Source of the DNA: an uncultured Gammaproteobacteria bacterium | Lineage (GTDB): Bacteria; Pseudomonadota; Gammaproteobacteria; Pseudomonadales; UBA5518 | Reading direction: 5' to 3' | Length of the DNA stretch: 64,000 bases | Assembly (NCBI GenBank): GCA_903928015.1 | Contig: CAIYPF010000043.1 | Span: forward strand, 1 to 64,000 | Shown: piece after piece, positions 27,799 through 42,539 of the stretch | Layout: each line of letters starts with the position of its first letter | Position numbering within the stretch: the first letter of the stretch is position 1 | Made by a program: the position numbers and the translations under genes | The notes under the pieces: model-generated | The model's database searches: none | What the model was told of the DNA's origin: nothing | What the model saw: the letters and a program-made list of their open reading frames with translations, nothing else

Positions 27799-30156
27799 TC
27801 AGCGCTCCGCCGCAACCCGTCCGAGCATCATCCAAGTATCGGCGATCACGTCGGGATTGAGCGAGATGCTCTGTATCCCCTGCTCCAGCAGCCAGGCCGC
27901 CAGGTCGGGATGGTCAGAAGGGCCTTGCCCACAGATACCGACGTAACGTCCTAGCTTGTTGCAGGCACCGATCGCCATGCCAAGCAGCATCTTCACCGCC
28001 GCGTCGCGCTCGTCGAAAAGCTCAGCCACCAGACCGGAATCACGGTCGAGCCCGAGCGTGAGTTGGGTGAGATCGTTGGAGCCGATCGAGAAACCGTCGA
28101 AGTGCGCAAGGAATTGCTCGGCAAGCAGTGCGTTGGACGGGATCTCGCACATCATGATGAGCTTCAATCCGCGCTCGCCACGGCGCAGGCCGTTCGCAGC
28201 AAGAAGCTCCACGACACGCGCGGCCTCGGACACAGTCCGCACGAAAGGCACCATCACCTGTACGTTGTCGAGACCCATCTCCTCACGCACATAGCGGAGC
28301 GCACGGCACTCGAGCTCGAAGCAGTCACGGAACCCCTCATCCACATAACGCGATGCGCCTCTGAACCCGAGCATCGGATTTTCTTCGACCGGTTCGTACT
28401 GCTGGCCGCCTACAAGGTGCGCGTACTCGTTCGATTTGAAGTCAGACAGACGCACGATGACGGGCTTGGGGTGGAACGCAGCCGCGATGGTGCCGATGCC
28501 TTCGGCAAGCTTGGAGACGAAATACTCCGTCGGCGATCCGTAGCCATGGATTCGCCGCTCCACCGCCTGGCGCAAATCGCCCGTCAGCGCATCGAAGCCC
28601 AGGAGGGCCTTGGGGTGAACGCCGATCATGCGGTTGATGATGAATTCGAGCCGTGCGAGCCCGACACCATCATTGGGCAACTGGCAGAAATCGAAAGCGC
28701 GGTCGGGGTTGCCCACGTTCATCATCAATTTTACGGGCAGCTCGGGCATTTCGCCCGCACCGTCCGCGCTGACCTGGAACTCGAGGCGTCCCGCGTATAC
28801 GTGCCCGGTGTCGCCCTCGGCGCAGGACACGGTTACGGCAACGCCGTCCTGGAGGCGCTCGGTAGCGTCACCGCATCCGACCACGGCGGGAATGCCGAGT
28901 TCGCGCGCGATGATCGCTGCGTGACAGGTGCGGCCTCCGCGATTGGTCACCACAGCTGCGGCGCGTTTCATGATCGGCTCCCAGTCGGGATCCGTCATGT
29001 CGGTAACGAGCACATCGCCGTCGCGCACGCGGGACATGCCCGATGCGTTCGCGATCACACGCACAGTCCCCGCCCCGATGCGATGCCCGATCGCCCGCCC
29101 TTCGCACAGCACGGCACCGCGTTCCTTCAGGAGGTAGCGCTCGACGGTGCCACCTGCCATGCGGCTCCTCACGGTCTCCGGGCGCGCCTGAAGCACATAG
29201 AGCAGACCGTCATCGCCATCACGGGCCCACTCGATATCCATGGGCCTCCCGTAGTGTTCCTCGATGCTGATCGCGATGCGCCCAAGCTCCACAACCTCCG
29301 CGTCGCTCAGGCAGAAGCGCTGTTGCAGTGCCTCCGGGACCGGCTCGATTGCCGTGCCCTGCGCGGCATAGACCATGCGCTGTTTCTTGTCGCCGAGGTT
29401 ACGGCGCAGGATCGGGTCGTGGCCGGTGCGGATCGCATGCTTGAACGCGTAAAACTCGTCGGGGTTCACGGCCCCCTGGACGACCATCTCGCCAAGCCCC
29501 CAGGAGGCGGTGATGAACACAACGCCGTCGAAGCCGGACTCCGTGTCCAGCGTGAACATGACGCCACTGGCCCCGGTACCGGCCTGCACCATGCGCTGCA
29601 CACCTGCCGATAGCGCGACCTCTGCGTGGCGGAAGCCCTTGTGAACGCGATAGGCAATCGCCCGGTCGTTGTAGAGCGATGCGAACACCTCGTGAATCGC
29701 GTCTATGACGGCGTCTTCGCCACGCACGTTGAGGAAGGTTTCCTGCTGTCCGGCGAAGGATGCGTCCGGCAGATCTTCTGCCGTTGCAGAGGATCGCACT
29801 GCGACCGCAATGTCTGCCCCGGCGGAAAGGCTGTGCCAGGCGGTGATGATCTCGGCCCGCAGGGCATCGGGAAAGGGCGCGAGCCGTATCCAGTTGCGGA
29901 TATCTCCGCCGGCCGCGGTGAGCGCGCCCACGTCGTCGGTATCCAGACCCTCCAGCCTCGCCGCTATGCGCGCGTCCAGCCCGTCGTGCGCAAGGAACTC
30001 GCGATAGGCCTCTGCAGTGGTGGCAAAGCCATCCGGCACCCGCACGTGGGCGGCTGCGAGCCCACGGATCATCTCTCCCAGGGACGCGTTCTTCCCGCCG
30101 ACCCTGCCAACATCGCCCATTCCGAGCGTATCCAGCGCAAGTACCCGAGTGTCCAT
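27799..30156 (-). CDS. ppsA: Phosphoenolpyruvate synthase
   Basis: A 785-residue enzyme converting pyruvate, ATP and water to PEP, AMP and phosphate. It has the N-terminal ATP-grasp domain ('[15 protein letters not shown]'), the phospho-His loop '[21 protein letters not shown]' (His near residue 410) and the C-terminal PEP-binding barrel with '[12 protein letters not shown]' and '[12 protein letters not shown]'. The start at 30156 has GGGAG upstream and begins the family's conserved N-terminus. It is divergent from its regulator ppsR, 85 bases away. Confidence 0.96.
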
Positions 30157-30241
30157 CGTGTCTGCTCCCGTGTGCTGGTCGTGTGCCATGGTAACCGAGC
30201 GCTGTGTCAGAATCGCCCGCACCGGATCAGGAAATCCCACC

Positions 30242-31057
30242 TTGAAACGCACGGCCTTTTTCGTGTCGGACGGCACCGGCATCACCGCCGAAACCCTGGG
30301 CGAAGCACTGCTCGCGCAGTTCGAAGGGCTGGAGATGGAGTATGTGCGGATGCCCTATGTCGACACGCAAGACAAGGCGCGGGCCGCCGTGGAGCGCATT
30401 GACGCGGCCGCCACGCGCGATGGCGCCGCTCCGCTTATCTTCGACACCGTGGTGGACCAGAGCCTGCGCCAGATTCTCGGTACCTCGCGCGGCTGCATGT
30501 TCGACATTTTCGCAACCTTCCTGTCTCCGCTGGAGCAGGCACTCGGCACACCTTCGAGCTTCACGGTCGGTGGCTTCCATCACACCCAGCACCACCAGTA
30601 CCACCAGCGCATCGATGCCATCCACTACGCCATGGCCAATGACGACGGGGCCAGTGGCAGCGAATACGCCAAGGCCGACGTGATTCTCGTGGGCGTCTCA
30701 CGCAGCGGCAAAACGCCCTCCTGCGTGTACCTCGCAATGCAGTTCGGAGTACACGCGGCAAACTATCCGATTACCGAGGACGATCTGGACAGCGGGCGCT
30801 TGCCGCCCGTCCTGGGCCCCTTTCAGGATCGCCTGTTCGGGCTGAGTATCGATCCGGTACGGCTGGCGTCCATTCGCGACGAGCGTCGTCCGGACAGCCG
30901 TTATGCATCACTGCGCCAGTGCGAGGACGAGGTGCGGCAGGTCGAGGGCCTGTTCAGGCGGCATCGGATCCCCTTCCTCGACACCACCCGGATGTCAGTC
31001 GAGGAGATCGCAACGCGCGTGATGATGCAAAAAGGCATTCACGGACGAAAACGCTGA
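30242..31057 (+). CDS. ppsR: PEP synthase regulatory kinase/phosphorylase
   Basis: A 271-residue DUF299 protein that reversibly inactivates PpsA by ADP-dependent phosphorylation and Pi-dependent dephosphorylation. It starts with '[19 protein letters not shown]' and has the P-loop 'GVSRSGKTP' (about residues 151-159) and '[14 protein letters not shown]'. The start is a TTG at 30242 with AGGA upstream; an ATG at 30188 would add 18 residues not typical of the family. Confidence 0.93.
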
Positions 31058-31066
31058 AATCCTGCC

Positions 31067-32011
31067 TCAGGGCAGAAGGCGGCGGGCCGCTGCGCGCGGC
31101 GTGAGATCACCCCGCAGGACCTGCTGCTCGAGCAGCGGAAGCTCCGCGCGTACATGAGGATCGGAGCGGAAGCGCTGCTCGAGGAGCTCGGCGATCAGCC
31201 GCTTGAGCCAGGCACCGTTCTGTCGTGCGCGCCGAGCGGCAAGTACGCCGCAGGCCTCGGCCTCGTTGCGGTACTCGCAGATCATTTCCCAGACCGCATC
31301 GATGCCCTGGTTCTCGAGCGCCGAACAGCAGAGCACGCGCGGCGCCCAGAAACTCCCGTGTCTCAGCAGGTGAAGGGCGTTCTGGTAATGCTGTCGGGTA
31401 CGTTGCGCGAGACCCGCGCTCTCGCCATCGGACTTGTTGATGACCAGTGCATCGGCCAGTTCCATGATGCCGCGCTTGATGCCCTGGAGCTCATCGCCCG
31501 CGTTGGGCAGCATGAGCACGAGGAAGAAATCGACCAGTTCCGCCACCTCGTACTCCGACTGCCCCACTCCGACTGTCTCGACCAGTATCACGTCGAAACC
31601 AGCGGCCTCGCAGAGCAGGAGGCTCTCTCGGGTGCGGTGCGCCACGCCCCCGAGAGCGCCTGCCGAGGGTGAGGGGCGGATGAACGCCGCTTCTTCACGC
31701 GAGAGTCGCTCCATGCGCGTCTTGTCACCGAGGATGCTGCCGCCGGCAACAGGCGAACTCGGGTCAACCGCAAGCACCGCCAGGCGATGGCCCTGCCGCA
31801 GCAGGTGGAGGCCGAAGGCTTCGATGAACGTGGACTTGCCTACGCCGGGCACGCCGCTCACGCCGATGCGGATGCTGCGCCCGGTGTGGGGAAGCAGTGT
31901 GTCGAGCAGGGCGTCGGCCGCTCGCCGGTGTTCCGCACGGGTGCTCTCGACCAGCGTTATCGCCTTGGCGAGAGCGCGGCGATTACCCGCGAGAATCTGC
32001 TCTGCATCCAT
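31067..32011 (-). CDS. meaB: Methylmalonyl-CoA mutase-associated GTPase MeaB
   Basis: A 314-residue G3E-family GTPase (ArgK/MeaB) that guards and reloads the B12 cofactor of methylmalonyl-CoA mutase. Walker A 'GVPGVGKSTFIE' is near residues 51-62, with 'AVDPSSPVAGGSILGDKTRM', the switch 'VETVGVGQSE' and the guanine motif 'INKSD'. It starts 11 bases after the mutase stop, last in the propionyl-CoA operon. Confidence 0.94.
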   Translation of the reverse strand: MDAEQILAGNRRALAKAITLVESTRAEHRRAADALLDTLLPHTGRSIRIGVSGVPGVGKSTFIEAFGLHLLRQGHRLAVLAVDPSSPVAGGSILGDKTRMERLSREEAAFIRPSPSAGALGGVAHRTRESLLLCEAAGFDVILVETVGVGQSEYEVAELVDFFLVLMLPNAGDELQGIKRGIMELADALVINKSDGESAGLAQRTRQHYQNALHLLRHGSFWAPRVLCCSALENQGIDAVWEMICEYRNEAEACGVLAARRARQNGAWLKRLIAELLEQRFRSDPHVRAELPLLEQQVLRGDLTPRAAARRLLP

Positions 32012-32022
32012 CGCGGCGCCGT

Positions 32023-34179
32023 TCAGCCCGTGCTCGCGCGGATGGCGTCGAGCACCTCCCGGGCGGCAGCGGGTATGCGCGTGCCGGGACCGAATATGCA
32101 GCGCACCCCCGCCTCGTGGAGGAAGGCGTAGTCCTGACGGGGAATCACTCCGCCTGCGACCACGACGATCTCGCCAGCCCCCTGCGCGCGCAAGGCCTCG
32201 ATCAGTTGCGGTATCAGGGTCTTGTGACCGGCAGCGAGGCTGGACGCACCCACAACATGCACATCGTTCTCGCTGGCCTGACGGGCGACCTCCTCGGGGG
32301 TGGAGAACATGGGCGACAGGTCGATGTCGAAACCCACGTCGGCAAAAGCGCTGGCGATGACCTTGGCGCCGCGGTCGTGACCGTCCTGACCCATCTTGCA
32401 CACGAGCATGCGCGGACGCCGGCCCTGCAGTTCGACGAACTCGGCGATCTCGGCGCAGAGCGCCTGCCAGTCGGCGTCCTTCTCGTAGGCGCTGCCGTAC
32501 ACCCCGGACACCGTGTTGGCCGATGCGCTGTACCGGCCCCAGACCTCTTCGAGTGCGGATGAGATCTCACCGACGGTAGCGCGGGCCCGTGTTGCGTCCA
32601 CGGCAAGCGCAAGAAGATTGCCGGAGCCATCACGCGCTGCGGTGGTAAGCGCAGCAAGCGCGGCCAGCACCGCCGCCTCGTCGCGAGCAGCACGGACAGA
32701 AGCAAGACGCCGCAACTGTGCGTCCCGCACCGCTGCGTTGTCGATCTCGAGGATATCGACCACCTCTTCCTTCGCAGGCGGGTATTTGTTGACGCCGACT
32801 ATCACGTCTTCGGCGCGATCTATCCTCGCCTGCTTGCGTGCGGCGGACTCCTCGATGCGTAGCTTCGGCATCCCGGTCTCGATGGCACGTGCCATACCGC
32901 CCTGCTGCTCGACGTCGGAGATGATCTCCCATGCGCGGTCCGCGATGTCCTGGGTGAGCGACTCCATCATGTACGAGCCACCCCAGGGGTCGATGGTCGC
33001 CGTGATGCCGGTCTCCTCCTGGAGGATCAGCTGCGTGTTCCGGGCGATCCGCGAGGAGAACCCGGACGGGAGCGCGATCGCCTCGTCGAGCGCGTTGGTG
33101 TGAAGCGACTGCGTGCCACCGAATACCGCGGCCATCGCTTCTATCGTGGTGCGCACCACGTTGTTGTAAGGGTCCTGCTCGGTAAGGGACCAGCCGGAGG
33201 TCTGGCAGTGGGTGCGCAGCATTCTGGACTTCGCACTCTTCGCGCCGAAGCCGTCGACGATGCGCGCCCACAGCAATCGCGCCGCACGCAGCTTGGCGAT
33301 CTCCATGTAGAAGTTCATGCCGATGCCGAAGAAGAACGACAGGCGTCCGGCAAATTCGTCGATGCCGAGCCCCGAGGCGATGGCGGTCCGGATGTATTCC
33401 TTGCCGTCTGCGAGCGTGAAGGCGAGTTCCAGCGCCGCATCCGCGCCGGCTTCCTGGATGTGGTAGCCGGAGATCGATATCGAGTTGAAGCGCGGCATGT
33501 TGCGCGCGGTGTAGGAAATGATATCGCCGATGATCCGCATCGAAGGCGCGGGCGGGTAGATGTAGGTGTTCCGGACCATGAACTCCTTCAGGATGTCGTT
33601 CTGGATGGTCCCCGACAGCTGCTCCTGCGAGACGCCCTGTTCTTCGGCCGCAACGATATATCCGGCAAGTACCGGGAGGACCGCACCGTTCATGGTCATC
33701 GAAACCGAGACCTGGTCGAGCGGTATGCCGTCGAAGAGGATTTTCATGTCCTCGACGCTGTCCACCGCAACGCCGGCCTTGCCCACGTCGCCCACGACGC
33801 GCGGGTGGTCCGAGTCATAGCCACGGTGCGTTGCCAGATCGAAGGCGACGCTCACGCCCTGCCCGCCAGCGGCGAGTGCTTTGCGGTAAAAGGCGTTGGA
33901 CTCCTCTGCGGTGGAGAAGCCCGCGTACTGGCGGATGGTCCAGGGGCGGCCTACATACATCGTCGCCTGAGGGCCCCGCACGAAAGGCTCGAAGCCGGGC
34001 ATGGTATTGGCGAAGGGCAGATCCGCGGTGTCGGCCGCGGTGTAGAGCGCCTTCAGCCGGATGCCTTCGGGAGTGATCGTGTCAAGCGTGTCCGGCGAAC
34101 TGCCGCCGAGCTGTTTGCGTACGGCTTTTTCCCAGTCGTCCTGGCCGGCCGTCGACGGGGTGTAATCCTGTGTGCTCAT
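32023..34179 (-). CDS. scpA: Methylmalonyl-CoA mutase (B12-dependent)
   Basis: A 718-residue single-chain mutase interconverting (R)-methylmalonyl-CoA and succinyl-CoA. The N-terminal TIM-barrel has '[21 protein letters not shown]' and '[32 protein letters not shown]'. The C-terminal B12-binding domain has the DxHxxG motif in '[12 protein letters not shown]' (about residue 596). AGGAG precedes the ATG. It follows the epimerase gene by about 55 bases on the same strand. Confidence 0.96.
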
Positions 34180-34234: not shown

Positions 34235-34645
34235 TCAGTGTTCGGCGGGAGGCTGGCTGAGTTCGATCAGTACGCCGTCACAACTCTTCGGATGGATGAA
34301 AATCACGCGGCAGCCGTGGGCACCGGGCCCTGGGGAATCCGACAGGAACTGGTAGCCCTTGGCGCGCAGGCGCTCGACATCCGCGTCGATGTCGTCGCTG
34401 CGAAAACAGAGGTGGTGGATGCCGCCGCCTTTCTTCTCGAGATACTTGGCGATCGGGCCCTGACCACGCAGCGGATGGACCAGTTCGATGTGCGTGGCAG
34501 GCAAGGGGAAGAAGGCGGTACTGGTCTGCGCGGACTCCACGTCTTCGGTGCCATCGAGGGGAAGACCGAAGTCATCGAGAAAGCGCCGGATGGCGCGTTC
34601 GAGGTCAGGAACGGCGATGGCGATATGGTCGAGTGCGGTGATCAT
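34235..34645 (-). CDS. mce: Methylmalonyl-CoA epimerase
   Basis: A 136-residue VOC-fold enzyme that interconverts (S)- and (R)-methylmalonyl-CoA. Metal ligands of the family are visible: 'LDHIAIAV' (His 7), 'HIELVHPL', 'GIHHLCFR' and 'GVLIELSQ'. It overlaps the upstream carboxylase alpha gene by 4 bases (ATGA) and so is translationally coupled to it. Confidence 0.92.
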
Positions 34646-37509
34646 GAGGCCTCCAGACTCTTAAGGAAGGCGGCAGTGGCCTCCACTCGGCGCGCACGCA
34701 GTTGCTCGGGGGTATCAAGGACGATCTGCTCGTCAGGCACGACCTTGAACAGCGGCTGCCCCTTCTTGATGATCACGCCCTCTCCATGCAGCAGCACCTT
34801 CTCGATGGTGCCGCTGAAAGGGGCATACACGCGATTGAACATCTTCATGACTTCGACGATGTACAAGGGATCGCCGGCCTTGAAATGCTGGCCTTCTTCG
34901 ACAAAAGCAGGCGCACCTGGCGCCTCCCGCGGATAGAACATACCTCCGCTCGCCGCCAGAATCTCGTCGGCACGGGCTTCGGGCGGGGGCACAAGGACCT
35001 TCGCCATGTCGGCCTGGTGCTTGGGATCGAGAAGCGCCTCGGGGATGTCGATCGACAGGTCGTCCCGGACCGACAATGCGTGAAAGCCGGTGGCGATCGC
35101 AATGTATGGAAGCACCAGCAGCACGGAGGTTCCGGCCTGATAGCCAAGGTGCGCGGCGCGCACCGAACTCCAGTCCTCGACCGCCGCTCCGGCCGGTGCG
35201 GAGTCTGCGCGCAGGACCGCGTCGAGTTCGATCCAATCGGCAATACCGGTGAGTTCAGCCGCTCGACGGTAGAACGCCAATGCCTGCTGGAGCACGGCGT
35301 TATCGTGGTCCCAGATCATGTAGGCCGGCGGTGTGGCGGCACGGAAGTCCATGTTGAGGTAGTGATAGGTGTCCGCGAGCAACTGCACGGGGTTCACGGC
35401 GAAACGGATCTGTTCCCCGGACGACGTGAACGCAGAGCGGTTGAGGCTCAACCAGCCCGCAAGCATATGCGGCTCGGCAAAGAGCTTGTGGACGGGGCGC
35501 AGAAGCAGGGATTGCTTGCGATCGATGCACTCCGCAAGTGCGCTGCGTCGGGCGGCATCGGGCTCGGCGGCCAACAGCCGGCGACGGATATCGCCAAGCG
35601 CGGGTTCCACGTCCAGCGCTGCGGCACGTTGGCGCAAGCGGCCAACCGCCGTCAGGTACGGAACGATGAAACGCGTGGTGGGACGCGCCTGCACATTGGC
35701 GCCCAGGAACCAGTTGACCAGTCCGTAATGGAATTCGAGGTTGGTGGCCAGATCCTTGCCCGCGAGGTGCGTCACGCGGAGTATCTCGGCGAGTCTGCGA
35801 TACACGTCCGGGCGGTCGTCACCCACGGTGAGAAGCAACGCGATGTTGCTGTCGTAGGCACCGGCGAGGGTGTAGGACATGAACACATCGGTATCGGGGT
35901 TGTGGATGCTGATGCCCTGATCGTCGCGGATCTCCCCGGGGACAGCATTCGACCAGGTACGGATCACGCCGCCGGCATGCGGTACAAGAGCCTGGTTGGT
36001 GGCGTTCAGACGAGCCTCGAGCGAGGCGTTGTGCCGGTGCACCCGCTCCGGCCGCGGCAGCCGCTTGCCATGGCGCGCAAGCAGGACCATTGCCTCGACC
36101 AGCGACTCGACCACGAAGGCATCGTCGGGATCGGCAGGGTTGCGGAAGCGCAGGCCATAGCAGAGCTCCGTCACGCGGTGCTCAACCTGGATGCGGGTGT
36201 TCATTTCCATGAAGAAGTGGTGGTCGCGCTCGACGATGCACTCGAAGGTGGAGACAGAATCCAGACCCACCGCCGCACCGAAGCGTGATGCCTCTTCTTC
36301 CATGCGCTGAAGGATCAGCAGGTCCTGCCGCAATACCTTCGCCTGCGCATCGTTGCCCGCGGCCTCCGCCGCCGCGATGGCGATCCCGAGTTCCTCCTCG
36401 GTGACCGAGACTTCAAGCAGTTTCTGCTCGTGCATCTGCAGCGAGCAATCCCGACCACCGAGCGTGGTGCACCACTCACCATTCCCGATCACCTGTATTT
36501 CCTGGTGCCGGGTGGTCTCGATGTTCAGTTCGAGCAGGATGTTCTTGTTGTCGCCGACGCCGGTCGACTTCACCTCCGCGAGGATCTCGCGGGCTTTTTC
36601 GGGAGCCGGAGCTGCGGCTTTCGCGATGCGCTCTTCGAGCGTTGCGCCTTCGCAGGAAGACGGGGAGGCAAGAATGCGCTGCCCTTTGCCGCCGCCACCG
36701 CCGATGGCCTTCAGGCGGATCCTGTTTTCCGGGTAGCGCGCATAGAGTTCGCGCAGGCGTATGAGCAGTTCGGCGCACAACTCCTCAACCGAATAAACGT
36801 CCACGCCCTTTCGGCAGGCCGCATTCAGCACCGCATCAACCTGGGATTCGAGCGCCACACCGGCGTCGAAAATGCCCGCAGGGACATCGAGCGCCCGGGC
36901 TGCAGCCAGCGCGCGAAGGGCGGCTGCGTCAGGGTGCTTGCGCAGCAAGGTGAGCGTAGTGAGGTTGTCTATGCCCGGCGTGACGCTGACGCCCACGGCA
37001 AGCGCCGTGCGCTTGGCCTCATCCTTGAAACCCGCGCCGCGGACAGTGCGGCTGCAGGGGCCGATGAAGCGCAGGCCGGCCTCCTCGATGGACTTGACCA
37101 GTTCCTCGTCCTCGGACATGAAACCGTAGCCCGCGAAGATCGAGTCATAGCCGTTGTCATGGGCGATGGCGATGATCTGCCGGATGCGCTGCGTGCGCTC
37201 CTCTCTGCTCGCACCGGTGTAGTCAGGCACGCGGTGGACGCGGCGCGGATCGGTGAGCGTGCGCAACTCGGGCGCAAGCGCATTGGAAAAGGTGATCGAG
37301 TCCTTCTCTGAGAGCAGGATCCCGTAGCCATGGATGCCCATCTCGTCGAAGACATCCATCGCCTCGCGCCGGATCGGCCCGCGGCAGATGATCAGGGGAC
37401 GCATGTCAACGCAGGCGAAGCCGCGAACCCAGGCCGAAGCCTGGTTGTCGAGGCGGCGATCGCGGTGTACGAGCGGGTTGCCGAGATAGTGTTCGTTGCT
37501 GCTGCGCAC
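34642..37509 (-). CDS. Atypical acyl-CoA (propionyl-CoA) carboxylase alpha chain with biotin carboxylase and biotin carrier domains
   Basis: A protein of up to 955 residues, much longer than usual alpha chains (about 660). A biotin carboxylase N-terminal domain is followed by an ATP-grasp with 'KAIGGGGGKGQ' (about 265-275), 'RHQEIQVIGNGEW', 'GGRDCSLQMHEQKLLE' and 'FFMEMNTRIQVEHRVTELCYGL' (about 432-452). A roughly 430-residue middle region follows. The C-terminus is a biotin carrier domain with the biotinyl-Lys motif EVMKM (Lys near 886). The stretch before the Gly-rich loop is about 50 residues longer than in AccC. The start is GTG 37509; an ATG at 37404 is an alternative. Paired with the beta gene 33 bases upstream, it should carboxylate propionyl-CoA. 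Confidence 0.8.
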   Translation of the reverse strand: MRSSNEHYLGNPLVHRDRRLDNQASAWVRGFACVDMRPLIICRGPIRREAMDVFDEMGIHGYGILLSEKDSITFSNALAPELRTLTDPRRVHRVPDYTGASREERTQRIRQIIAIAHDNGYDSIFAGYGFMSEDEELVKSIEEAGLRFIGPCSRTVRGAGFKDEAKRTALAVGVSVTPGIDNLTTLTLLRKHPDAAALRALAAARALDVPAGIFDAGVALESQVDAVLNAACRKGVDVYSVEELCAELLIRLRELYARYPENRIRLKAIGGGGGKGQRILASPSSCEGATLEERIAKAAAPAPEKAREILAEVKSTGVGDNKNILLELNIETTRHQEIQVIGNGEWCTTLGGRDCSLQMHEQKLLEVSVTEEELGIAIAAAEAAGNDAQAKVLRQDLLILQRMEEEASRFGAAVGLDSVSTFECIVERDHHFFMEMNTRIQVEHRVTELCYGLRFRNPADPDDAFVVESLVEAMVLLARHGKRLPRPERVHRHNASLEARLNATNQALVPHAGGVIRTWSNAVPGEIRDDQGISIHNPDTDVFMSYTLAGAYDSNIALLLTVGDDRPDVYRRLAEILRVTHLAGKDLATNLEFHYGLVNWFLGANVQARPTTRFIVPYLTAVGRLRQRAAALDVEPALGDIRRRLLAAEPDAARRSALAECIDRKQSLLLRPVHKLFAEPHMLAGWLSLNRSAFTSSGEQIRFAVNPVQLLADTYHYLNMDFRAATPPAYMIWDHDNAVLQQALAFYRRAAELTGIADWIELDAVLRADSAPAGAAVEDWSSVRAAHLGYQAGTSVLLVLPYIAIATGFHALSVRDDLSIDIPEALLDPKHQADMAKVLVPPPEARADEILAASGGMFYPREAPGAPAFVEEGQHFKAGDPLYIVEVMKMFNRVYAPFSGTIEKVLLHGEGVIIKKGQPLFKVVPDEQIVLDTPEQLRARRVEATAAFLKSLEAS

Positions 37510-37542: not shown

Positions 37543-39264
37543 TCAGTGGAATTCGCGCTGCACGCCCGTGAAAGGGCCGGGCTCGTAGTGACGCAGATGG
37601 AAGAGCAGGTTCTCGGCGAGCACTTTCCGCAGATCCGAGGGCATGACGATCTGCGAGATCGAACCGAGGCTGAGAGCCTCGTTCGGGTTCATGAGCTCAC
37701 GTTCGTAGCGCGCTGCAAGCGCGGCCTCCTGCTCCTTCGCCCAGGCATCGACCAGAGCCTTTGCCTCGGCCTCGGGATCGGCTGCGCCGGCCGCACGAAG
37801 GCTCTTCAGCGCCTCTGACAGGCGCGACTGACGTGCCGAACGCACCGCACGCAGTTCGTCCTTGTACACGAACTCCACGCCCGCAGGCCCCATCACCGCC
37901 GCGCGAGTGGTGGGGAGCGCGATCACGAGGTCCGCCCCCGTCGGGTAATTGTTGAAGGAGGCATAGGCGCCGCCAAAGGCGTTGCGCAGGATCAGCAGGA
38001 AACGCGGAGTGCGAAGATCGATGATCGCGTCGAGCATCGCGCGGCCCGCCTGCACGATACCGCCGGTCTCCTGCTCACGACCTGGCAGGAAGCCGGTGGT
38101 GTCTTCCATGAAGACGACGGGGATGTTGTAGACATTGCAGAACCGGATGAAGCGGGCGTTCTTGTAGGCCGCCGCGATGTCGATCTGCCCGGAGGCGACG
38201 GCGCTGTTGTTCGCGACGAATCCGACCACCTGACCACCGAGACGACCAAAGGCCGTGATGGTGTTGCGTGCCCGGTCCGGCTGCACCTCCATGAAGTCGC
38301 CGTGATCGCAGAGCTGCTGGATGATGATGCTGACGTCGAAGGGCGTGTTGAAGCCCGTCGGCGAATTGAAGGCCTTGCGCAGCAGGATATCCACGTCCCA
38401 GGTCTTGCGATCGACCGGATCGGATGTCGGCTGGTACCGCGCCAGTTCGCTGTTGTTGTTGGGAATGTAGTTGAGGATTTCCCGCACTTTCATCAATGCG
38501 CCGACTTCGTCCTCGACCACGAAATCGGTGACGCCACTCTGGGAATGAACGCCCGGCCCGCCAAGTTCGTCGGGGGTCACGTCCTCCCCGAGGACGGACT
38601 TCACGACGCCCGCCCCGGTCAGCCCGAAGAATGTGCCGCGCGGCTGGATGACGAAGCTGCCCTGGCGCGGGAGGTAGGATCCGCCCCCGGCATTGAAGCC
38701 GAACATGCACATGATGCTGGGAACCACGCCACTCACCTTGCGCAGCGCGGTGAAGGCCTCGGCGTAGCCGTCCAGACCGCCCACGCCCGCAGGCACGTAT
38801 GCGCCGGCACTGTCATTGAGCCCGACCAGCGGTATGCGACGCTTGGCAGCGAGTTCGAAGAGCCGCGCAAGTTTGCGACCGTTGGTCGCGTCCATGGATC
38901 CGGCGCGGACAGTGAAGTCATGGCCGTAGAGCGCCACGTCGCGACCGTTCACCTTGATGATGGCGGTCACGAGCGAGGCGCCATCGAGGTTCTCACCCCA
39001 GTTCTGGAACAGCACGGTGGGCTCGCCGTCGGCGAGAACCGCGATGCGCTCCCACACCGTCATGCGGTCTTTCTGGTGCTGGCGCTCGATGTTGACCACG
39101 CCCGCCGCCTGACGCGGACGTCGCTGCAGCGCGAGCCCCGAGGCCAGGGTCTGCTCGTACAGGCCAGGCTGATAGCCGACCTGTCCGGGCACCGTGAAGG
39201 CCTGCTCCGGTTCGTCGTGGAAGGGATTCTGCAGGGAGTAGGCGGGACTCCGCTCGTCGCTCAT
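37543..39264 (-). CDS. Acyl-CoA (propionyl-CoA) carboxylase beta chain
   Basis: A 573-residue carboxyltransferase of the crotonase-like fold. '[13 protein letters not shown]' opens the domain. The CoA-binding oxyanion loops are seen in '[24 protein letters not shown]' and '[36 protein letters not shown]'. Start 39264 is preferred; the open frame continues to 39351 but without family similarity. It is the first gene of the operon beta-alpha-epimerase-mutase-meaB. Confidence 0.88.
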
Positions 39265-39458
39265 CGTGCCGCAGTCCTTGTACAAAGGAGAAAAAACTTC
39301 ACGCCGCGCGCAGGCCGCGCAGCCCCTGAAAACTGGCACACTGCGGGCCAAGTTGACATGGCCTACGTTGTGCCCGGCAAGCCGCTGGGCCGACCGGCAA
39401 AAAACCCCGCAAGATTAGGCAGTTAGAGCGGCAATTTCAACCGCTGGAGGCGAATCGA

Positions 39459-40865
39459 TTGCGCGTGCAGGACGTAGTCCCCCTGCCCTACCTCGAGGAT
39501 CCCTGCACCTACTTCGCCAGGATCCGCCATCGGCCCTGCGCGGTGCTGCTCGACAGTGCACGCCCGTTCAGTCAGGAGGGGCGCTTCGATCTGATGTCCA
39601 GCGACCCTCTGGCAGTGCTGGAATCCCGCGCCGACCTGAGTTCGGTGTGGCGCGCGGGGGATGTACGCGCCGCCTCGGGCTCGCCCTTCGAGATTCTCGG
39701 CGAACTGCTGACCGAATTCGCCCCCGACGACAGACAACTCCCGGGGGAATGGCCCTTCGCGGGCGGAGCGATCGGCTACTTCGGCTACGGACTCGGAGCA
39801 GGAATCGCGCGCACCGCGCCCCGCAACTCCGGCCCACTCCCCGACCTGCACGTGGGGATTCACGGCTGGGCCCTGATGCAGGATCACGAGCTGCGCCGCA
39901 GTGCGGCGGTCTTCACGCCAGGCTTTGATCCGCTCCTGCGCAAAGGCATCCTCACGGCGCTCGCCACGCCCGAACTGGCACCCAAGCCCTTCGCACCCAC
40001 CGCGCCCTTCCGCTCGAACATGGGTCGCGCCACCTACTCGCGCGCTTTCTCCCGCATCAGCGAGTACATCCTCGCGGGCGACGTCTACCAGGTGAACTTT
40101 GCCCAGCGCCTGAGCGCTCCAGCCCGGGGAGATCCTTGGGAAGCCTATCTCCGTCTTCGGCGGCGCATGGCCTCGCCTTTCTCGGCATACATGCCGATCG
40201 GGGACGCCGCGGTGCTCAGCCTCTCCCCCGAACGCTTCCTGCGCGTCAACGGCGACCGGGTGGAAACCCGGCCCATCAAGGGAACACTTCGGCGCGGACC
40301 GGACCCCGCAACGGATCGTGCCCAGGCCGAAAAACTGCTCGCATCGACAAAGGACCGTGCCGAGAACGTGATGATCGTCGACCTGATGCGCAACGACATC
40401 GGACGCTCCTGCAGAACGGGAAGCGTACACGTCGAAAAGCTCTGCGCGCTCGAGAGCTACGCCAACGTCCACCATCTGGTGAGCGTCGTCACAGGAAGCC
40501 TCGCGCCGGGGGAAACGCCGGTCCGGCTGCTCGGGAACTGCTTTCCAGGAGGCTCCATCACCGGTGCGCCGAAGATACGGGCAATGCAGGTCATCGATGA
40601 ACTCGAGCCCGATGCCCGCAGCATCTATTGCGGTTCGGTGGGATACATTTCCTTCGACGGCAACATGGACACCAGCATCACGATCCGCTCGCTGGTGTGG
40701 GACGGCAAGGAAATCCATGCCTGGGGTGGCGGCGGCATCGTCGCTGACTCGGCGTGCGACACCGAATACCGCGAGAGCCTCACAAAAGTGGAGCCCCTGC
40801 TCGAGGAGCTGCAGCCCGGATCGATAGAGGCCTTGCTCAGAGATCCCGGATGCTCGCAGACCTGA
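39459..40865 (+). CDS. pabB: Aminodeoxychorismate synthase component I
   Basis: A 468-residue chorismate-utilising enzyme making 4-amino-4-deoxychorismate for folate. It has 'FDLMSSDPLAVLE', 'AGDVYQVNFAQRL', 'RPIKGTLRRGPDP', 'DLMRNDIGRSC' and 'FPGGSITGAPKIRAMQ', all typical of PabB/TrpE. The start is a TTG at 39459 with GGAGG eight bases upstream. The 3' end overlaps the convergent thrH by 29 bases. Confidence 0.94.
   Translation: MRVQDVVPLPYLEDPCTYFARIRHRPCAVLLDSARPFSQEGRFDLMSSDPLAVLESRADLSSVWRAGDVRAASGSPFEILGELLTEFAPDDRQLPGEWPFAGGAIGYFGYGLGAGIARTAPRNSGPLPDLHVGIHGWALMQDHELRRSAAVFTPGFDPLLRKGILTALATPELAPKPFAPTAPFRSNMGRATYSRAFSRISEYILAGDVYQVNFAQRLSAPARGDPWEAYLRLRRRMASPFSAYMPIGDAAVLSLSPERFLRVNGDRVETRPIKGTLRRGPDPATDRAQAEKLLASTKDRAENVMIVDLMRNDIGRSCRTGSVHVEKLCALESYANVHHLVSVVTGSLAPGETPVRLLGNCFPGGSITGAPKIRAMQVIDELEPDARSIYCGSVGYISFDGNMDTSITIRSLVWDGKEIHAWGGGGIVADSACDTEYRESLTKVEPLLEELQPGSIEALLRDPGCSQT

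Positions 40866-41483: not shown

Positions 41484-42539
<1,056 letters not shown>

Follow-up and report, generated by a model that had tools for sequence, protein, structure and literature searches.

Five genes on the minus strand of the window, the whole 64,000-nucleotide stretch of DNA analysed here, encode a carboxyltransferase (beta), an atypical biotin carboxylase/biotin carrier protein (alpha), a methylmalonyl-CoA epimerase, a methylmalonyl-CoA mutase, and the GTPase MeaB (Table 1). The alpha open reading frame reported by an earlier sequence-only reading was recovered exactly, with 955 codons, and its strand, which that reading left unstated, is the minus strand. Orthologues of alpha are 58 to 91% identical and can be aligned over the whole length. 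These full-length orthologues and the conservation of catalytic residues in 110 aligned members imply that the frame did not arise by chance, and the GTG start is plausible because the N terminus is common to the orthologues. The epimerase start codon overlaps the alpha stop by 4 bases, and the MeaB frame overlaps the mutase gene, its true start being probably near 32010. No tRNA, Rfam, or tandem-repeat feature was found in a scan of the window. The block is adjoined by a divergent pabB-like gene (39459-40865, plus strand) and a gene for a cysB-like regulator (41484-42464, minus strand), a neighbourhood that is long-conserved, being also present in most Halieaceae-type loci. On the other side, reading of the translations identified a PEP synthase-like gene (27799-30285, minus strand) and, divergent to it and with overlapping ends, a gene for a PpsR-like regulatory kinase/phosphorylase (30017-31057, plus strand).

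Table 1. Genes of the block and features of the alpha protein, in window coordinates (residue numbers refer to alpha).
Feature	Position	Strand	Basis
Beta subunit, carboxyltransferase; ORF of 602 aa, true start likely near 39264	37543..39351	-	
Alpha subunit, atypical biotin carboxylase/biotin carrier protein, 955 aa, GTG start	34642..37509	-	
Biotin carboxylase N-lobe, residues 33-184	36958..37413	-	Structural match from residue 33; residue mapping
Helical insert of about 55 residues before Gly-rich loop, residues 207-261	36727..36891	-	AccC alignment; model helices
Lys267 and Gly-rich ATP-binding loop GGGGGKGQR, residues 267-278	36676..36711	-	
Further inserts (367-379, 392-400), part of a helical hairpin, residues 367-400	36310..36411	-	
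EMNTRIQVEH active-site motif, residues 435-444	36178..36207	-	
All-helical middle domain with one beta hairpin, in BT place, residues 598-846	34972..35718	-	
AccB-type biotin carrier domain with thumb, residues 847-926	34732..34971	-	
Biotin Lys889 codon	34843-34845	-	
C-terminal helix behind carrier, residues 934-951	34657..34710	-	Model
Methylmalonyl-CoA epimerase	34235..34645	-	TIGR03081 over cut-off
Methylmalonyl-CoA mutase, 718 aa	32023..34179	-	NF006944 over cut-off
MeaB GTPase	31067..32401	-	NF006958 over cut-off, match from residue 133

Alpha is composed of a biotin carboxylase (BC), a middle domain of 249 residues, an AccB-type carrier, and a C-terminal helix, and its full-length AlphaFold2 model has a pLDDT of 86.8 and a pTM of 0.85. 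The motifs noted by the sequence-only reading are all present, namely GGGGGKGQR (residues 270-278), EMNTRIQVEH, and EVMKM with the biotin lysine. Residues 33-621 superpose on the E. coli BC (PDB 4hr7) with a Z score of 39.5 and 2.6 A over 414 residues, and the C-lobe ends near residue 600-621. The ATP-grasp active site that is characteristic of the superfamily of biotin-dependent carboxylases is complete in alpha: the E. coli catalytic positions K116 (Lys162 of alpha by residue mapping), K159, H209, E211, K238, E276, E288, N290, R292, Q294, E296, and R338 are kept in 110/110 members, and Glu435, Asn437, Arg439, Gln441, and Glu443 of the EMNTRIQVEH motif are invariant. As had been stated, the protein exceeds known propionyl-CoA carboxylase (PCC) alpha chains by about 300 residues (955 versus 662 in a true PccA of the same order), and the approximately 50 additional residues ahead of the Gly-rich loop correspond to a 55-residue insert relative to AccC. 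The middle of about 430 residues described in the same reading stands when counted from the EMNTRIQVEH motif, but about 160 to 185 of these residues form an ordinary BC C-lobe; since the structural match extends to residue 621 and the profile match to residue 615, the unusual middle comprises about 225 to 250 residues, roughly 598-846.

A charge reversal was observed from Glu49, which is invariant (110/110), to Asp52 (108/110), encoded at 37354-37365 on the minus strand. These residues stand at the positions of Arg16 and Arg19 of the E. coli BC; in the canonical BCs compared, the former position is occupied by Arg in all cases and the latter mostly by Arg. Both arginines are part of the E. coli dimer interface. 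An R16E mutant of the E. coli enzyme is present in the PDB (3rv4). Judged from the sequence, the reversal hints at a different packing of the BC domains and possibly at a changed BC dimerisation.

The carrier domain scores over the cut-off of Pfam Biotin_lipoyl, its Met-Lys-Met is invariant, and the biotin lysine is found in 110/110 members. An AccB-type thumb motif is present in 106/110 members, the remaining four having the same motif with one substitution, and is missing from the canonical alphas compared.

It is the middle domain that sets alpha apart from the canonical PCC, MCC, and GCC alpha chains, in which a BT domain is located between BC and carrier; the lack of this feature places alpha outside their family. 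The BT domain consists of a helix within an eight-stranded barrel (PMC4673880, PMC4833862). When predicted alone from 86 sequences, the middle domain of alpha was modelled as helices with one hairpin at a pLDDT of 95.2 and a pTM of 0.90; its first 20 residues or so may still belong to the end of the BC fold. According to the sequence-only reading, an alignment of the middle region with the BT and linker domains of a characterised carboxylase would speak against a new family, and no such BT match was obtained. Neither Pfam PCC_BT nor BT_MCC_alpha matched the alpha family, although both matched their controls, namely the PccA of another genome of the order (G045) and the window genome's own MCC alpha, and hhalign of the domain against seven canonical alpha chains returned a probability of 0.1. 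It appears very improbable that alpha is an ordinary PCC alpha chain with helical insertions whose BT domain has diverged past sequence recognition: such an origin would fit the canonical order of BC, middle, and carrier, and BT sequences show little conservation even between GCC, MCC, and PCC (PMC4673880), but the confident all-helical prediction, the failure of the BT models outside their controls, and the deep separation of the BC domain itself argue against it.

Wider searches with the middle domain were equally negative. Its members gave no convincing Pfam match, its profile retrieved nothing significant among PDB sequences, the best Foldseek hit in the PDB was not significant (E=0.67), and VIA-align reached a best Z of 3.6, a value that alone is no proof of a new fold. 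We read this as pointing to a domain that, as modelled, would be without a close solved relative, which falls short of proving a new fold. Within the order, the domain was found in one copy per genome and in no protein other than alpha.

The BC phylogeny was based on 20 alpha-family members and 16 canonical domains, comprising seven canonical alphas, seven AccC proteins including that of E. coli, and two pyruvate carboxylases, with urea carboxylase and actinobacterial alphas outside its scope. In this tree the alpha family forms a deep clade of its own that is split from the canonical domains, and hence from the PCC/MCC/GCC clade, with a support of 100/100. The two branches at the split measure 1.88 and 2.28 changes per site and exceed the distances among the canonical BC types in the same tree; branches of this length can mislead as to where the clade attaches, but less so as to its separateness. 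Family models and sequence searches gave a similar picture. Alpha passes no curated NCBIfam BC cut-off and scores far under all of them (169 versus 965 bits for the PYC model and 159 versus 597 bits for another BC model), and in a PDB sequence search every known type scored low, the best with 108 bits. Pfam CPSase_L_D2 matches alpha, as it does ordinary alpha chains.

Comparison with known systems reveals resemblances to several of them. The canonical PCC (PccA/PccB; PDB 3n6r, 6ybp, 7ybu; that of G045) likewise has two genes, BC and carrier in the alpha chain, a PccB-type carboxyltransferase as beta, a mutase neighbour, and the same catalytic residues, whereas its alpha chain has about 660 residues and PCC_BT in place of the helical domain, and the two BCs are only about 29% identical in their C-terminal half. 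The window pair differs further in its AccB-type carrier and in a pocket Ala that replaces Asp. The MCC/GCC alpha chains (PDB 3u9s, 8j4z) share the order of BC, middle, and carrier and are the second-best PDB sequence match to alpha, but have their own BT barrel (PMC4673880), of which none was recognised in alpha. The best match, at the 108 bits mentioned above, is bacterial AccC/AccB, including the fused BC-BCCP of Chloroflexus (PDB 8hz4); the carrier with an AccB-type thumb is common to both, whereas AccC and AccB usually come as two chains, lack a helical domain of 250 residues, work with another carboxyltransferase type, and form a separate clade. Pyruvate carboxylase (PDB 5vyz, 7zz3) shares the BC fold and the carrier but bears a pyruvate-type carboxyltransferase domain on its chain, and no such domain was found in the 955 residues of alpha. 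A parallel may be drawn to the central domain of eukaryotic acetyl-CoA carboxylase, which is also a large non-catalytic region within a biotin carboxylase that has no homologues elsewhere; that enzyme possesses a BT domain in addition (PMC4833862), and its central domain is not among the listed fold matches of the middle domain.

Clear links exist between alpha and the methylmalonyl-CoA pathway. A Carboxyl_trans gene is located immediately upstream of alpha in 74 of the 75 loci where the upstream side could be seen, and a mutase gene follows downstream in 59 of 66 loci. The mutase is present in 26 of the 55 genomes of the order, and alpha relatives were found in 25 of these and in 0 of the 29 genomes without it. 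With one genome per family the pattern was 19/1/0/25 (both in 19, mutase only in 1, neither in 25), this being the only correction for kinship applied, and linked genes can move together. In the exceptional genome, G045, the mutase gene is directly followed by genes for a canonical PccB (GGAYDVM) and a 662-residue PccA with Pfam PCC_BT, indicating that two structurally different enzymes fill one slot. Two open frames of 1817 and 1499 aa in distant members had suggested a fusion of alpha with the carboxyltransferase; this candidate was rejected because the sequence upstream proved to be the carboxyltransferase gene, which is read in a different frame of the GC-rich DNA.

Beta is extended at its N terminus, carries a C-terminal insert of about 45 residues, and shows the pocket motif GGAYASFNN, so that both partners are unusual. 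The substrate-pocket Asp of PccB (GGAYD; present in 6ybp and the G045 PccB) is thus replaced by Ala, from which it follows that the substrate specificity may differ, the Asp being a marker of specificity and not a strict requirement. Alpha and beta might consequently carboxylate other or a wider range of acyl-CoAs (acetyl-, butyryl-, branched), with propionyl-CoA as one among them; the Ala is found in the orthologues with a readable motif, and single carboxyltransferase substitutions are reported to shift the preferred substrate (PMC3199775). We consider this unlikely in view of the near-perfect co-occurrence and linkage with mutase and epimerase and of the true PCC in the same slot of G045. 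A transcarboxylase or decarboxylase system in place of an ATP-dependent carboxylase is extremely improbable. Beta does score with the mmdA subfamily model, below its cut-off, and a 2010 analysis of Geobacter bemidjiensis proposed a transcarboxylase route for propionate metabolism with other genes, Gbem_0334-0337 (PMC2996986). Such systems, however, would have no need of the ATP/bicarbonate site that is complete and invariant in all 110 members, and the window's block showed no gene for a 5S-type or membrane decarboxylase.

The proposal that alpha may represent a distinct acyl-CoA carboxylase class is supported in all tests, namely by its own clade, the lack of a recognisable BT domain, the all-helical middle, the low NCBIfam scores, and the methylmalonyl linkage. 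Both the distinct class and the role in the methylmalonyl pathway are well supported. Alpha probably works like a PCC and belongs to the biotin-dependent acyl-CoA carboxylases. With good confidence, it can be regarded as the larger of the two subunits of an ATP-dependent PCC of a distinct class, its helical domain probably serving in docking. We infer the following activity, substrate, docking role, and holoenzyme shape for the alpha/beta pair. The BC of alpha would use ATP and bicarbonate to carboxylate the biotin attached to Lys889 in its own carrier domain, which would then swing to the carboxyltransferase encoded just upstream, where propionyl-CoA would be carboxylated. Epimerase and B12-dependent mutase, the latter kept active by MeaB, would convert methylmalonyl-CoA into succinyl-CoA. 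This predicted chemistry, from ATP-dependent carboxylation of the carrier via transfer to propionyl-CoA up to succinyl-CoA, is highly probable. The helical domain, at the site of the canonical beta-barrel BT, would most likely dock alpha on the carboxyltransferase, probably resulting in a different holoenzyme.

Docking by the helical domain in place of BT is suggested by its position and is somewhat favoured. It is rather unlikely that the domain has mainly a regulatory or allosteric function, as a sensor of a metabolite or protein, and leaves docking to the carrier, the BC inserts, or the carboxyltransferase extensions. The extension and insert of beta would fit such a function, as would a diverged alpha homologue of 747 residues (L021, 5954-8149, plus strand, genome G022), in which the middle has about 114 residues instead of 249 while the operon setting of mutase, MeaB, and carboxyltransferase is kept. 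Against it stand the site between BC and carrier, which is the position of BT and of the PT/allosteric region of pyruvate carboxylase, and the finding that no known ligand-binding family was recognised in the domain. The homologue, whose form may be reduced or ancestral, keeps the operon without most of the domain, so that the domain may not be indispensable. A further-reaching proposal, namely that alpha represents a further major BC lineage next to AccC, pyruvate carboxylase, and the canonical acyl-CoA carboxylase alphas, with a helical domain of new fold standing in for BT and assembling a holoenzyme unlike the alpha6beta6 cylinder, is advanced tentatively, at a little short of even confidence. 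If the role of alpha as a PCC is confirmed, the link between the two half-reactions would have evolved at least two times with unrelated domains, one fold would be added, and a new scaffold for the engineering of CO2-fixing enzymes would become available.

Alpha relatives were detected at 80 loci from genomes that are named or binned, most of them belonging to Halieaceae, Spongiibacter, and other Pseudomonadales, while those of Geobacter and Desulfuromonadales are 58 to 60% identical. The middle domain is present in 53 of the 58 genomes searched of the Geobacter class, of which G411, G656, and G673 have two copies each, those of G411 being two full-length proteins. No alpha relative was found in the plasmid and viral collections. 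At E<=1e-50, class- and phylum-wide searches retrieved no copy other than that of the window, which is weak evidence of absence because only 4 to 6 candidates were scored per genome.

In a survey from 2011, the monofunctional PCCs found were confined to Alpha- and Betaproteobacteria (PMC3199775). Alpha is a concrete candidate for the missing PCC of many Pseudomonadales (Halieaceae, Spongiibacter, and others) and of the Geobacter class, and a distinct carboxylase class could account for the apparent lack of the ordinary enzyme in marine gammaproteobacteria and Geobacter relatives. No prior description of the family was found in the open-access literature, and databases may hold such proteins under generic names. 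As no curated model searched covers alpha, the step may be overlooked or wrongly named when pathways are predicted for these groups.

The biotin carboxylases of Geobacter sp. AOG1 are AccC, pyruvate carboxylase, and a member of the alpha family only. A search of the window genome with alpha matched only AccC/AccB and one canonical alpha; the latter is clustered with an acyl-CoA dehydrogenase and a carboxyltransferase, in what looks like a leucine degradation cluster. Two extra carboxyltransferase genes of this genome, one on the window's contig past the window (L145, 7131-8663) and the other at L146, 5562-7358, have no biotin carboxylase gene alongside, and one of the two sits after an acyl-CoA synthetase-like gene.
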